Source of the DNA: an uncultured Alphaproteobacteria bacterium
Lineage (GTDB): Bacteria; Pseudomonadota; Alphaproteobacteria; HIMB59; GCA-002718135
Length of the DNA stretch: 64,000 nt
Assembly: GCA_902540265.1 (NCBI GenBank)
Contig: CACBLW010000003.1
Coordinates: forward strand, 1-64,000
Direction: 5' to 3'
How positions within the stretch are numbered: position 1 is the first letter of the stretch; every line of letters starts with the position of its first letter. Both the position numbers and the translations under genes were made by a program. The notes beneath the pieces were generated by a model, which was not told the DNA's origin, did not search any database, and was given only the letters and a program-made list of their open reading frames with translations. Positions 35,821-40,077 of this stretch are shown piece after piece.

Positions 35821-36248
35821 TTTTTTTTATAATTAGAAAAATTAATTACATTATTTTTGTTTAATTTTTTCTTTTCAACTTTTTTATTTACTTTCTTTTG
35901 AATTTTATTTTTTTGCAAAATTAATCCAAAATTAGCTGAAGGATCTGCAAAGGAGATGACAGAATTATAATCTATTTTTAAATTTGTTTTTACATCATTA
36001 AATGAAAGTGAAATAGAAAAATTATTTTGATTTATTTCAAGATCATAATATTCGTATTGAATTACTATAGTCATTTCTTCTGGATATTTTTCTCTTAACC
36101 AATTTGGCAGTTCAACATTTTGATGATTAGTAGAAAATGTAACATAGAGGTGATTATTATTTGTGAGTCCTTTATCTCTGATATTAATCAGAATATCTTT
36201 AAGTACGTTTAATATATTTTTATCTAATATATTTTGATATTCAATCAT
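35817..36248 (-). CDS. sspB: SspB-family ClpXP adaptor (alphaproteobacterial type)
   Basis: HLYVTFSTNHQNVELPNWLREKYPEEMTIVIQYEYYDLEI..FSISLSFNDVKTNLKIDYNSVISFADPSANFGLIL fold signature. Confidence 0.85.
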   Translation of the reverse strand: MIEYQNILDKNILNVLKDILINIRDKGLTNNNHLYVTFSTNHQNVELPNWLREKYPEEMTIVIQYEYYDLEINQNNFSISLSFNDVKTNLKIDYNSVISFADPSANFGLILQKNKIQKKVNKKVEKKKLNKNNVINFSNYKKN

Positions 36249-36652
36249 TTTAAGCTTTCTATGTAAGACAAAAAATTATTAATTTCTACAAACTTACACA
36301 ATCCAATTGGAAACATTTCTCTCGTTGTAAATCCACCACCAGTCATAGTCCAAACATCAACTCGCAATGAGTTAAGTTCAATAGAATAAACTCTATCTCT
36401 AATATTATTTTCATTCGAAAATATGTTAACGTATGATAGTTCTAAATCTACATCATAATAATACTCATTAATAGATGTAATTTTATTAAGGTTTGTATTA
36501 ATGACTTTGACTTTATTTGATGAAATAAAATCAAATCCCCATAATAATGTTGGACATAATAGTTGATTATTTGAAAAATCATATTTTTTAAGAGCTATAG
36601 ATGAGGACGAATAAATAAATAAAAATATAAAAATAAATAATTTCTTTATCAT
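36245..36652 (-). CDS. Hypothetical exported protein
   Basis: 135-aa ORF with clear signal peptide (MIKKLFIFIFLFIYSSSSIA); overlaps sspB start. Confidence 0.65.
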   Translation of the reverse strand: MIKKLFIFIFLFIYSSSSIALKKYDFSNNQLLCPTLLWGFDFISSNKVKVINTNLNKITSINEYYYDVDLELSYVNIFSNENNIRDRVYSIELNSLRVDVWTMTGGGFTTREMFPIGLCKFVEINNFLSYIESLK

Positions 36653-36725: not shown

Positions 36726-37091
36726 TTATTTTTTTAGTTTTTCCCATTCAGCCATACCACCAGAAATATTCTTTACATTCTTAATGCCCATGTCATGCAT
36801 TGTTTTAGTTGATAAAGTTCCTTGCCCACCAACACCACAAAATACAACATATTCTTTATTAGGATTTTCTTTAAAAAATTTATTTTCTAAGGGACTACCT
36901 TCTGCTAAATAAAATTCAAGAAAAGCTCTATCCAAATGTATTGCATTTCCTATTGTTCCTTTATCAAAACTGTCTTTATCTCTTACATCAATAAATTGTA
37001 CATTTGGATCATTGAGCTTTTCCCTTGCTTCTGTTGCAGAAATATTTTCAATTTCATTTTTAACACTCATCAATTCTTCAAATTTTTTCAT
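36726..37091 (-). CDS. Rhodanese-domain protein
   Basis: FIDVRDKDSFDKGTIGNAIHLDR; VVFCGVGGQGTLSTKTMHDMGIKNVKNISGGMAEWEK (CGVGGQG active-site loop). Confidence 0.9.
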   Translation of the reverse strand: MKKFEELMSVKNEIENISATEAREKLNDPNVQFIDVRDKDSFDKGTIGNAIHLDRAFLEFYLAEGSPLENKFFKENPNKEYVVFCGVGGQGTLSTKTMHDMGIKNVKNISGGMAEWEKLKK

Positions 37092-37112: not shown

Positions 37113-37136
37113 TGGGGCGTTCTGTTGCTCAGTGCC
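37113..37136 (+). repeat. Distal copy of the tmRNA 3' end (putative att site)
   Basis: TGGGGCGTTCTGTTGCTCAGTGCC, 23/24 identical to 39730-39753 inside ssrA. Confidence 0.85.
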
Positions 37137-37324
37137 AGAACAAGTCCTCATTAAATTACACATACCCAAACACCCAATAGTTTAAGCATTTCCTACTGTT
37201 ATCACTCATTCTTTCTTTAAAACTTATATCATATTTATTTTGAGAACAGAGAATTTTTAATTATTTTACACACGATATATAATAATTTAATAAAGTTATT
37301 TAAAAATTTATTGTATGTTTAATT

Positions 37325-37681
37325 ATGTTTTTAAACTTAATAAAAAAAATCACAGTCTTCTTATTTTTTGTTAATCCTGCTCTAGCTTTTCATGATGTAG
37401 AAGTTTCTAATGAGGATATAGCTACTTTAGGAGGATTATGGGTTCAAATATTTGTTTATGAAGAAAACTGTATAGATAATCAATATTACACTTTAATAAT
37501 AGAAAGATTACAAGAAAGTCCAAGATTTGAAAGATACTCATCAGAGATAGATCATTTAACTGAAAGCCAAGAATTGGCTTGGGAAAATGGTGCTGAAGGC
37601 GCAGCTTTAGTAATTGAATCAGGTGGAACAAGCTGTGATATTATAGCCGAAGTTATTTGGGAATGGTTTGGTGAAAATTAG
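37325..37681 (+). CDS. Hypothetical exported protein (cassette 1 cargo)
   Basis: 118 aa, signal peptide MFLNLIKKITVFLFFVNPALA, acidic mature domain. Confidence 0.65.
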   Translation: MFLNLIKKITVFLFFVNPALAFHDVEVSNEDIATLGGLWVQIFVYEENCIDNQYYTLIIERLQESPRFERYSSEIDHLTESQELAWENGAEGAALVIESGGTSCDIIAEVIWEWFGEN

Positions 37682-37698
37682 AAAAATTTTAATTTATT

Positions 37699-37720
37699 TA
37701 CGCACATATTACGCACAAAT
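37699..37720 (+). repeat. Two 11-bp direct iterons TACGCACATAT/TACGCACAAAT
   Basis: Adjacent copies at 37699-37709 and 37710-37720, ~51 bp from the core at 37772. Confidence 0.7.
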
Positions 37721-37771
37721 TTAGAGCAACTTAAAAAAACAAAAAAAATGAATCAAAATTTAAGAATATGG

Positions 37772-37906
37772 TGGGGTGTTCTGTATAACGACTACTAAAT
37801 CATTATTAACAGAAAATAAGGACTTTTGGAAACTTCTTCGTATAAACTTCGTAGTAAGTTTTCATTATTCGTCAGATTTCTTGTTTTAGTTCCTCGTAGT
37901 TTTTTG
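37772..37906 (+). repeat. Cassette left-end repeat, copy A (starts with core TGGGGTGTTCTGT)
   Basis: Nearly identical with small indels to 38930-39062: ...ACTAAATCATTATTAACAGAAAATAAGGACTTTTGGAAACTTCTTCGTATAAACTTCGTAGTAAGTTTTC...GTCAGATTTCTTGTTTTAGTTC.TCGTAGT. Confidence 0.9.
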
Positions 37907-37928
37907 TTATAAAAAAAAACTAATAAAT

Positions 37929-38810
37929 ATGAAACTACAAAATATATTAATTTATTTCAACATTAGTATTTTTTTTATTTTGCTATCTTCTAGTTTAAAA
38001 GCGGAAATAAAATTAAATGATTTTGTCCCAAGTCAATTTCATGGTGTCTGGAGTGAAGATTGTGAAATTCAAGAATTTACTTGGCGAATTGATGAATATA
38101 CAAGTTTAGAAATTACTGAAAATAATTTCTATTTAGATTTTTTGAAAACTAATCAGATTAATACTTACACAGTTTCAAAATACCATCAAGAATGGGAACC
38201 GGGAAAACCATGGTATTTTTTTATGAAAATAGAAAATGAAAAACTTGTATACAAAGATATGCCCTCTGAATGGAATGAAAAAGACTTTAGTTTCTTATTA
38301 GATTCTACATATGATGACACAACTGTTTTTGAAAAATGTGAGTTAGGTATAAAAAATGAATACAAAATAATTTTAAATACACTTTTAGAAATATTAGACT
38401 CAGACATCATTAAAATTTGTAGTGAAAGTAACTTTCAAAATATTAATTGCTATAAAAGTTTTTTTAATTTTTTTGACATAAATAGAGATAGAGAATTAAC
38501 AATTGCAGAACTATCATTCTTTTCTAAATTTTTAATAAATTTTATATACCTTAATGGTAATATAAATGCCGATTATAATGAAAGTTTAATGCAAGATAAT
38601 TTTTTAATAATTAATGGAACATCATTTGTTTTTGCACCATATTTTTCACAATTACTTGTATTAAATTATGATTTTGATAATTCTAATTCTCTATCAATTG
38701 ATGAAATACTAAATGAAAATTCTGAAATTATAACAAGTATTCCACTTTTATTAAATAGCGATATAAATTCATTACAAGATTTATTCACTAAATTTAACAA
38801 TATCTTTTAA
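37929..38810 (+). CDS. Hypothetical exported protein with two EF-hand-like loops (cassette 2 cargo)
   Basis: Signal-peptide-like N-terminus; DINRDRELTIAE and DFDNSNSLSIDE calcium-loop patterns. Confidence 0.7.
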   Translation: MKLQNILIYFNISIFFILLSSSLKAEIKLNDFVPSQFHGVWSEDCEIQEFTWRIDEYTSLEITENNFYLDFLKTNQINTYTVSKYHQEWEPGKPWYFFMKIENEKLVYKDMPSEWNEKDFSFLLDSTYDDTTVFEKCELGIKNEYKIILNTLLEILDSDIIKICSESNFQNINCYKSFFNFFDINRDRELTIAELSFFSKFLINFIYLNGNINADYNESLMQDNFLIINGTSFVFAPYFSQLLVLNYDFDNSNSLSIDEILNENSEIITSIPLLLNSDINSLQDLFTKFNNIF

Positions 38811-38848
38811 ATCTAATAGTTTTAGTTGGTATAAATATTTTCTTAAAT

Positions 38849-38929
38849 ACTTCGTAGTAACTTCGTAGTAAACTTCGTAGAAAGATTTTTATAAAAAATT
38901 ATTGATATTACTAGATAATATTAAAAAAG
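38849..38929 (+). repeat. Cassette right-end repeat, copy A with three CTTCGTAG iterons
   Basis: ACTTCGTAGTAACTTCGTAGTAAACTTCGTAG...ATTATTGAT..TAGATAATATT.AAAAAAG; matches 39650-39729; followed directly by core TGGGGCGTTCTGT. Confidence 0.9.
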
Positions 38930-39062
38930 TGGGGCGTTCTGTAGAACGATCACTAAATCATATTAACAGAAAATAAGAAATTTTGGAAACTTCTTCGTAG
39001 AAACTTCGTAGTAAGTTTTCTTTATTTGTCAGATTTCTTGTTTTAGTTCTTCGTAGTCTTTT
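38930..39062 (+). repeat. Cassette left-end repeat, copy B (starts with core TGGGGCGTTCTGT)
   Basis: Match to 37772-37906; core followed by perfect inverted repeat CGTTCT-GT-AGAACG (38935-38948). Confidence 0.9.
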
Positions 39063-39590
39063 TTATTCTTTAATTAAGGATAATAATTTCTTTGCTAGTC
39101 TAGAAACTGCCTTTCTTCTATCTTTTGAAAGTTTTTTAATAATTTTTATATTTTCTTTTATTGTTTTATTATCAATTTTATTGAAAGTTATTAGAGCATT
39201 CATTGATTGACACAAAACAATCCAATCACTGGAATTATTAAGATAATCAGATACAATTTTTTTTGCTTTTTTTTGTTCTTTATTTTCTAATTGATTAACT
39301 AATTCTGAAAATAATTGAGCGCAGGTCCATTGTGTGGAAGATTGTTTTATTTTTGAAATTTTGTTTAAGAAAATATGTTTAAAATCTAAAAACCATTCTG
39401 GTTTTTGTCTAAATATTCTTTTAAAAGCATTTGATGTTCTTAATCTTACTATTTGGTCTGTGCTTGAATAACACTTAATTAATGGATTAATTCTATTTTT
39501 TTTAACAATAACATGTTCAACAACTTTTATTGTATTACCTAGTGAATTTGGATGACCTCCAGTTAGTTCAGACTCATAATTCATTATCAA
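39063..39590 (-). CDS. HEAT-repeat-like protein (cassette 3 cargo)
   Basis: 175 aa, all-alpha repeat character; ESELTGGHPNSLGNT N-terminus, VRLRTSNAFKRIFRQKPEW. Confidence 0.7.
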   Translation of the reverse strand: MIMNYESELTGGHPNSLGNTIKVVEHVIVKKNRINPLIKCYSSTDQIVRLRTSNAFKRIFRQKPEWFLDFKHIFLNKISKIKQSSTQWTCAQLFSELVNQLENKEQKKAKKIVSDYLNNSSDWIVLCQSMNALITFNKIDNKTIKENIKIIKKLSKDRRKAVSRLAKKLLSLIKE

Positions 39591-39649
39591 TTAATTTGTT
39601 TAAATAAATCTGACAATTAACATTACCTAATAATAAATTATATATTTTC

Positions 39650-39729
39650 CTTCGTAGTAACTTCGTAGTAAACTTCGTAGAGAGGTTTTTAAAAGAAATT
39701 GTTGATTTGATTAGATAATATTTAAAAAA
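39650..39729 (+). repeat. Cassette right-end repeat, copy B with three CTTCGTAG iterons, abutting the tmRNA 3' end
   Basis: CCTTCGTAGTAACTTCGTAGTAAACTTCGTAGAGAGGTTTTTAAAAGAAATTGTTGATTTGATTAGATAATATTTAAAAAA, then TGGGGCGTTCTGT of ssrA. Confidence 0.9.
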
Positions 39730-39730
39730 T

Positions 39731-39960
39731 GGGGCGTTCTGTTGCTCGGTGCCCCTGACCGCGCTCACCTAGAATCTAGGCAGCAAGTGCTAATCTATTA
39801 TCGTTAGCGTTTATAAAATAGCCCGATAACGGTGGTACAATACCGGATAAAGTCTTTGTCTTTGAATTACCGTCAAACCTATTTCGTCCCCATATTGGTG
39901 GAGACGCCGGGTACCGCCCCCGGGTCCGAATAACTTATTGCACAAAGCATTTATTATCTT
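39731..39960 (-). ncRNA. ssrA: tmRNA, circularly permuted (two-piece); proteolysis tag ANDNRLALAA
   Basis: Minus strand: T-arm CCGGG-GGCGGTA-CCCGG, acceptor CGTCTCC + ACCA (39896), ATAT spacer, 5' GGGGACG (from 39891) pairing with CGTCTCC; GCT AAC GAT AAT AGA TTA GCA CTT GCT GCC TAG = ANDNRLALAA*; terminal GGGGC...GCCCC hairpin followed by ATTTTTT. The 5' boundary of the acceptor piece is approximate. Confidence 0.93.
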
Positions 39961-39980
39961 AGTTGCAAAGCAACATTTTC

Positions 39981-40008
39981 ATTATACCTTAAACTAATAA
40001 TACTTGAA
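39981..40008 (-). promoter_or_regulatory. Putative ssrA promoter (TTCAAG-N16-TATAAT)
   Basis: On the minus strand TATAAT at 39986-39981 and TTCAAG at 40008-40003. Confidence 0.45.
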
Positions 40009-40077
40009 AGTTTTGTCTTGAAACCTAGCAATTAAAAAAAAAAATTGTTACTAATTAAAACATAAAATAAAAGAAAT

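Follow-up and report, generated by a model that had tools for sequence, protein, structure and literature searches.

Introduction

Cis-mobilizable elements (CIMEs), such as the ICESt1-related elements of Streptococcus thermophilus, are presented in PMC5704250 (citing Pavlovic 2004 and Bellanger 2011) as elements that have lost their integration genes, have kept their ends and accrete in tandem. In Dehalococcoides, islands lie in tandem downstream of ssrA, the transfer-messenger RNA (tmRNA) gene, and are bounded by copies of its 3' end, with about half of them lacking an integration module (PMC3146451). Here we describe an array of three small cassettes beside ssrA in a 64,000-nucleotide stretch of contig CACBLW010000003.1, hereafter the window, from an uncultured alphaproteobacterium of the HIMB59 lineage. 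We judge it probable (roughly 0.82) that this region is a tandem array of decayed, non-autonomous integrative elements that accumulated by tyrosine-recombinase insertion and that helper integrases would have mobilised. Each unit would comprise a core that duplicates the ssrA transcript's 3' end, left and right ends with arm-type repeats, and usually one cargo gene.

The state that marks a CIME, both ends kept and integration genes lost, is found here, with paired ends and cores, no recombinase in the window array and relics of integrase genes; as in CIMEs, units would stack at one target by further site-specific insertion. The CIMEs of PMC5704250 derive from integrative and conjugative or integrative and mobilizable elements, whereas here the units span 0.12–3.7 kb and mostly hold one gene (a 10.4-kb element, described below, apart), several end families share a site, no conjugation gene was recognised in the likely parent, and units appear to spread singly. 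The Dehalococcoides islands are likewise ssrA-bounded tandem units of variable number with an integrase gene at attL, but they use the serine recombinase DsiB and carry larger cargo, while here the recombinases are assigned to the tyrosine family, ssrA is permuted, the units are miniature, and arm-type repeats and integrase relics mark their ends. Rather than a CcrB-like serine integrase such as DsiB at attL, the 10.4-kb element has a predicted tyrosine recombinase at its end, and its serine resolvase is internal.

Additive flexible genomic islands at tRNAs are known from Methylophilaceae, where they start at 330 bp (PMC10872708), and from Ca. Actinomarinales (PMC7771536), and there too recurring tRNA 3'-end repeats bound variable inserts in streamlined aquatic bacteria; the anchor is a tRNA and not tmRNA, and the sections of those papers on the islands do not describe ends, arm repeats, integrase relics or a helper element. 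Tycheposons of Prochlorococcus and VEIMEs are named in PMC11389934 and PMC10872708, the latter giving a size of 4–200 kb. They are marine, cargo-bearing tyrosine-recombinase elements at tRNA-type genes, and the 10.4-kb helper, with its clamp loader and resolvase and no recognised structural genes, looks like a satellite of this sort. They are much larger and bear a recombinase, whereas most cassettes here are derivatives with a single gene and no recombinase: a tyrosine recombinase of their own at a tRNA-type gene is absent from the window cassettes and present in the helper elements. Integron arrays and clusters of attC sites lacking integron-integrases (CALINs; PMC11389934) are comparable in their tandem one-gene cassettes, in arrays without their own integrase and in mobilisation in trans, but here attC and IntI were not found, the boundaries are ssrA ends in one orientation, and several recombinase specificities are predicted. 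A paper on HIMB59 genomic islands does not mention tmRNA or ssrA (PMC10734472). The ssrA cassettes are related to CIMEs, to the Dehalococcoides ssrA islands and to additive islands, but are miniature, of several families and built of one gene per unit; an earlier description may exist outside open-access papers.

Results

Four ssrA-end copies delimit three cassettes

The gene order in the window is rhodanese, three intervals, ssrA, and then dfrA-like and thyA-like genes, the last two named from their translations. The anchor of the array, ssrA (39728–40013, minus strand), is a circularly permuted alphaproteobacterial tmRNA gene by Rfam (RF01849, alpha_tmRNA; 217 bits, E 1.1e-62) and by ARAGORN. 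The rhodanese gene (36726–37091, minus strand; PF00581, E 1.4e-20) lies outside the array as its fixed outer neighbour and forms the boundary in 25 delimited loci. A 13-bp core, TGGGGYGTTCTGT, occurs four times on the same strand with at most one mismatch allowed, at 37113, 37772, 38930 and 39730, exactly where the initial annotation had placed repeats of the tmRNA end. No copy appeared in any of 100 dinucleotide shuffles (chance expectation 0), and the 1.41-Mb assembly holds none beyond these four. Copy 1 (37113–37136, plus strand), with similarity to ssrA extended over 23 of 24 positions (96%, against 39730–39753), marks the outer limit of the array and lies 21 bp from where rhodanese starts; copy 2 (TGGGGTGTTCTGT; 37772–37784, plus) separates cassettes 1 and 2, and copy 3 (38930–38942, plus) separates cassettes 2 and 3. 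Copy 4 (39730–39742, plus) is the 3' end of the ssrA transcript, shows 0–1 mismatch in 43 of 43 loci checked, and would serve as an attB-like core restored after every insertion. The circular permutation of alphaproteobacterial ssrA means that the repeats copy the 3' end of the primary transcript's tag-coding piece, whose tmRNA-strand sequence ACAGAACGCCCC aligns with the terminus of the Rfam model; the tmRNA 3' end proposed earlier as the anchor is indeed what is repeated, but it differs from the CCA acceptor end that a one-piece tmRNA would have. Folding energy at the ssrA 3' end, taken over the whole stretch, was no better than chance (z 0.09), and we claim no terminator.

The cores define intervals of 659, 1158 and 800 bp, each with one substantial open reading frame (ORF), in agreement with the first reading, and profile searches gave no confident protein family for any of the three cargos. 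Cassette 1 (37113–37771; end family L1/R1), next to rhodanese, encodes a 118-aa exported protein (37325–37681, plus) whose family is also present in genomes G028, G047 and G052, and its right end holds two TACGCACA arm-type repeats (37699–37717, plus; family R1). Cassette 2 (37772–38929; end family L0/R0) encodes a 293-aa exported protein with a signal-like N-terminus (37929–38810, plus) and a weak match to EF-hand_6 that falls below the cut-off (E 0.012). Cassette 3 (38930–39729; also L0/R0), next to ssrA, carries a 175-aa ORF on the opposite strand (39063–39590, minus) with weak HEAT-like similarity (Cnd1, E 0.004, below the cut-off); the same cassette, 787–802 bp long, is present in 29 genomes.

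Intervals 2 and 3 have common left (~135 bp) and right (~80–95 bp) ends around their cargo, and alignment bears out this earlier observation at 93% over 102 nt, 88% over 33 nt and 89% over 93 nt. The initial annotation had missed that each of these ends holds three CTTCGTAG-type octamers at fixed distances from the core. In cassette 2 they are CTTCGTAT at 37836, CTTCGTAG at 37847 and CCTCGTAG at 37892 on the left (37836–37899, plus) and CTTCGTAG at 38850, 38861 and 38873 on the right (38850–38880, plus). In cassette 3 all six are CTTCGTAG, at 38993, 39004 and 39049 (38993–39056, plus; the same core spacing as in the autonomous element below) and at 39650, 39661 and 39673 (39650–39680, plus). 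Ten exact copies of CTTCGTAG occur in the window, where 0.27 are expected, and all are within the array. Genome-wide, both the core and the arm pairs are confined to the ssrA locus, a search proposed in the initial annotation; ordinary dispersed repeats are thereby ruled out in the window's genome.

Cassette number and content vary among relatives

We call an array delimited when a single piece carries both rhodanese and ssrA and the outermost core is 18–30 bp from the rhodanese start, a spacing that 24 other loci share with the window. Among the 25 delimited arrays, six are empty sites (G011, G014, G031, G043, G074 and G090), nine hold one cassette, seven hold two, two hold three and one holds four; outside this set, arrays reach seven cassettes, in G066. 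The nearest relative by dfrA-thyA (G023, 99.1% identical) has a single unrelated cassette against the three of the window. The serial site-specific insertion suggested earlier is thus matched by 0–7 cassettes between fixed boundaries, and the relatives share no fixed set of ORFs. Since arrays differ between near-identical relatives, a fixed, vertically inherited gene cluster is ruled out. A further 18 loci have extra DNA beyond the last core that could be recognised, and close to rhodanese this DNA often contains a decayed core and a recognisable left end. The outermost cores of occupied arrays have a mean of 2.4 mismatches, compared with 0.07 for ssrA cores and 0–1 at empty sites. The difference does no more than hint that arrays grow mainly from the ssrA side, as ssrA cores are also under tmRNA constraint.

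A gene for a 135-aa exported protein (36245–36652, minus) is in its usual place beside rhodanese in the window, outside the array. In G056, G058 and G061 a homologue 84–85% identical lies between cores next to ssrA (L228:13102-13503, L231 and L210), and the fetched pieces hold no second copy; it is a candidate for a neighbouring gene captured as cargo, or for a rearrangement.

Paired ends and unit-specific arm repeats

Across genomes we collected 121 units bounded by cores, a set that counts the 10.4-kb element twice, once for each host; the median length is 820 bp, and 90 units contain exactly one ORF of at least 60 aa. Four main families, of 51, 21, 15 and 15 units, account for most left ends, and the right ends form partner families. 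Partners co-occur in 71 of the 121 units, while 20,000 shuffles gave a mean of 24.5 and a maximum of 41; with the HEAT cassettes set aside, 42 of 92 units are paired (shuffle mean 11.4, maximum 27). Both ends of one cassette also share arm heptamers beyond within-family shuffles, at 5.76 against 1.93 (maximum 4.05) for L1, at 6.38 against 2.90 (maximum 5.77) for L3, and with p 0.0026 for L2. Examples found at both ends of single L1 units are ACGCGT, ACGCAC, AGTCGC and ACGGCAC. Repeats shared in this way are the pattern expected if they were arm-type binding sites of different integrases. As at least four end families use one ssrA site, several recombinase specificities would have acted there, a refinement of the earlier picture that is drawn from sequence comparison.

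With the genes of the 10.4-kb element included, 109 protein families were counted. Pfam names among the cargo include GNAT acetyltransferases, methyltransferases, a trypsin-like protease, glucose/sorbosone dehydrogenase, a permease, bactofilin, endonuclease/exonuclease/phosphatase, HNH and cytosine DNA methylase. Matches to a defence library are few and mostly to one type II methyltransferase, and certain cargo families are found with more than one end family. At the small extreme are near-bare end pairs with little or no coding sequence (120 bp in G041, 129 bp in G081 and 152 bp in G010). A 3352-bp cassette in G106 (L222) carries a cytosine DNA methylase and three further genes, and may serve in restriction-modification or defence.

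An autonomous element with the same ends

In the Pelagibacteraceae single cells AG-359-P21 (G110) and AG-447-G05 (G111), a 10,384-bp element at ssrA is enclosed by ends like those of cassettes 2 and 3 in the window; in G110 it is located at L284:1580-11977. Its arms lie at +64, +75 and +120 and at −79, −68 and −56 from the cores, and the window agrees within 1 bp. The two copies are 99.86% identical while the 1.5-kb left flank is 83% identical, so the element is mobile. It encodes a T4-type clamp-loader homologue, the internal serine resolvase and proteins of no named function, and resembles a phage satellite; no structural genes were recognised in it, and its scanned proteins include no relaxase or conjugation family. 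By eye only, a 469-aa protein has a motif resembling ADP-ribosyltransferases.

Adjoining the left end of the element, with its stop codon 93 bp from the core, is a gene for a 429-aa protein that we call the type-B integrase. This protein and five SAR11 homologues keep the R, E, K, R and Y positions; R239, K274, R357 and Y389 are invariant across the six, so that the Arg-Lys-Arg-Tyr catalytic positions are conserved. At E ≤ 0.5, four of the six match Phage_int_SAM_5 (PF13102) and three Phage_integrase (PF00589), although the best E value, about 9e-4, is weak. From these residues and matches, the type-B protein is predicted to be a divergent tyrosine recombinase. Two of the homologues, those of G375 and G426, are likewise found beside an ssrA-type core, from which their stop codons are 89 and 93 bp distant, but with other arm repeats (GGTACATAG and CTTCGTTGAG). 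A scan of named genomes for the type-B left end returned 35 loci, all titled alphaproteobacteria and with Pelagibacteraceae single cells among them; it is rare in Pelagibacteraceae, with 1 of 397 genomes. Neither phage records nor viral contigs yielded the type-B integrase, and exact scans of IMG/VR viral contigs gave no match to the core and end sequences. A looser scan for arm pairs gave at least 120 matches, by arms alone, and is not used as evidence.

Arrays at ssrA are present in SAR11 genomes too, with four cores in 1.1 kb in G375 (L297), and G410 (L301) has a degraded integrase of the type-B family near ssrA.

Integrase relics within cassettes

L0 cassettes keep in-frame pieces of the type-B integrase gene at the matched position within the left end: G114 has 58 residues interrupted by one stop, G050 has 28 at 93% identity, and G055 has 27, again with one stop. 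HEAT cassettes retain 13 residues of its 3' end, which in window cassette 3 (39025–39063, minus) read KKTTKN*NKKSDK, with 11 of 13 identical. The longer relics are significant; the 13-residue relic alone is not (E 0.18) and overlaps an arm site, but the longer ones, lying at the same place, lend it support. The earlier statement that the array holds no recombinase therefore stands, with the addition that cassette 3 keeps this relic. A second integrase type, at the right end, is intact in G006, split into two frames in G048 and reduced to N-terminal relics of 26 residues in G008 and 47 residues in G062; the G006-type integrase is predicted to pair with putative GCTTCGGC arms. With relics of two integrase types, cassettes of at least two kinds appear to descend, through internal loss, from elements that carried an integrase.

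Transfer of a single cassette between lineages

The distances among 800-bp HEAT cassettes do not follow those of their hosts by dfrA-thyA (r = −0.08, 24 genomes). The copy in Pelagibacteraceae G113 is 99.6% identical to those of G089, G085 and G041, which belong to the window's genus, while the 400 bp on each side is 14–45% identical and the mrp genes of G113 and the window share 59.6% identity. Identity ends at the cores, and the comparison supports the view that one cassette passed by itself, site-specifically, between two lineages of marine alphaproteobacteria.

Discussion

Proposed mechanism and alternative explanations

Comparison among genomes shows units delimited by cores, sites that hold none, turnover, left and right ends that go together, arm repeats common to both ends of a unit, an autonomous element that has such ends, graded relics of integrase genes and transfer bounded by cores. 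On our proposal, the octamers would be integrase arm sites, with the arm repeats of each unit recognised by one tyrosine recombinase. Autonomous ancestors, with the integrase just within one end (left for L0, right for L1/L2), would have integrated at ssrA by core-to-core recombination that restored the ssrA end each time. Internal deletion and replacement would then have taken the integrase and spared both ends, and a helper integrase of the same arm specificity could excise and insert the surviving cassettes. Repeated insertion beside the intact ssrA core would stack units, the outer ones decaying. Mobilisation in trans by helper integrases, which the initial annotation had also put forward, is strongly suggested by the matching integrase-bearing element in other marine alphaproteobacteria.

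Several results pull against this proposal. An intact type-B integrase was found in none of 110 genomes of the window's family, so local mobility may be low today, and neither an excised circle nor a junction left by excision was seen. Pfam gives no significant match for the type-B integrase itself, its single-sequence AlphaFold2 model is uninformative (predicted local distance difference test score 37), and a profile search against solved chains was marginal. The 13-residue relic could have been kept because of the overlapping arm site, and within-cassette sharing of arms is not significant for L0 (p 0.145), whose arm repeats are too uniform to discriminate. Most compared genomes are incomplete single-cell or metagenome assemblies.

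The alternative that survives best is that full elements decayed in situ to one-gene relics and spread by regional homologous recombination or by mobilisation in cis with a new neighbour, no single cassette ever being mobilised in trans. Decay of the outermost cores relative to those at ssrA, the broken or missing integrases with no helper found in the clade, and the accretion of decayed elements documented for CIMEs (PMC5704250) would all fit. Yet the HEAT cassette alone is near-identical across lineages, with identity lost at the cores and not shared by neighbours or flanks; its distances do not track the host, and repeated decay to equal length would hardly yield one and the same 800-bp unit in 29 genomes. 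We therefore regard this explanation as rather unlikely, though it is the most serious competitor.

Much less probable is a dedicated cellular recombinase that shuffles cassettes at ssrA in the manner of an integron. The arrays look like integrons, and a tyrosine recombinase of 352–365 aa is conserved at one locus, away from ssrA, in most of the 110 relatives and of the genus (G000:C4:84776-85357, L005, in the window's genome). Against this, at least four end families with different arm repeats are better explained by an integrase for each than by one cellular enzyme, element-type integrases occur within the array, the boundaries are 13-bp ssrA-end copies and not attC sites, and genomes of other lineages carry the same ends. 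The sole PF00589 protein of the genome matches no integron-integrase subfamily model at E 0.01 and scores 55 bits against a XerA/integron-integrase equivalog cut-off of 220 bits; with no attC and no IntI match, membership in the integrons is ruled out. No separate XerC/XerD pair was found with PF00589, and the 352–365 aa recombinase is far under the XerC and XerD equivalog cut-offs. Chimeric joins at ssrA repeats are a very improbable source of the arrays and we reject them: most genomes are single-cell or metagenome assemblies by title and repeats favour misjoins, but independent assemblies repeatedly show identical kinds of unit between cores (29 HEAT cassettes), together with paired ends, flanks that are fixed on the outer and inner sides, and empty sites.

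Significance

Very small ocean genomes have few known routes for the rapid gain of single genes, and an ssrA array assembled by insertion of integrative elements would be one such route: a fixed address at which one-gene units swap between species and major lineages at a cost of ~200 bp of ends. The units also form a readable decay series, from the 10.4-kb element through relics of 58, 28 and 13 residues to end pairs of 120–152 bp. Such a series would show autonomous integrative elements becoming minimal hitchhikers, an origin that is usually only argued for miniature inverted-repeat transposable elements and CALINs. The arm repeats predict which integrase would move which cassette, and this is directly testable.

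More broadly, and tentatively, since we give it less than even odds, the locus may represent a widespread cassette system of streamlined marine alphaproteobacteria. In such a system tyrosine-integrase ends, instead of attC, would define movable one-gene cassettes, unrelated integrase specificities would share the permuted tmRNA end, helpers would come and go on satellite-like elements, and neighbouring genes could be captured between cores. If this is so, ssrA arrays would perform for streamlined marine alphaproteobacteria a service like that of integrons.

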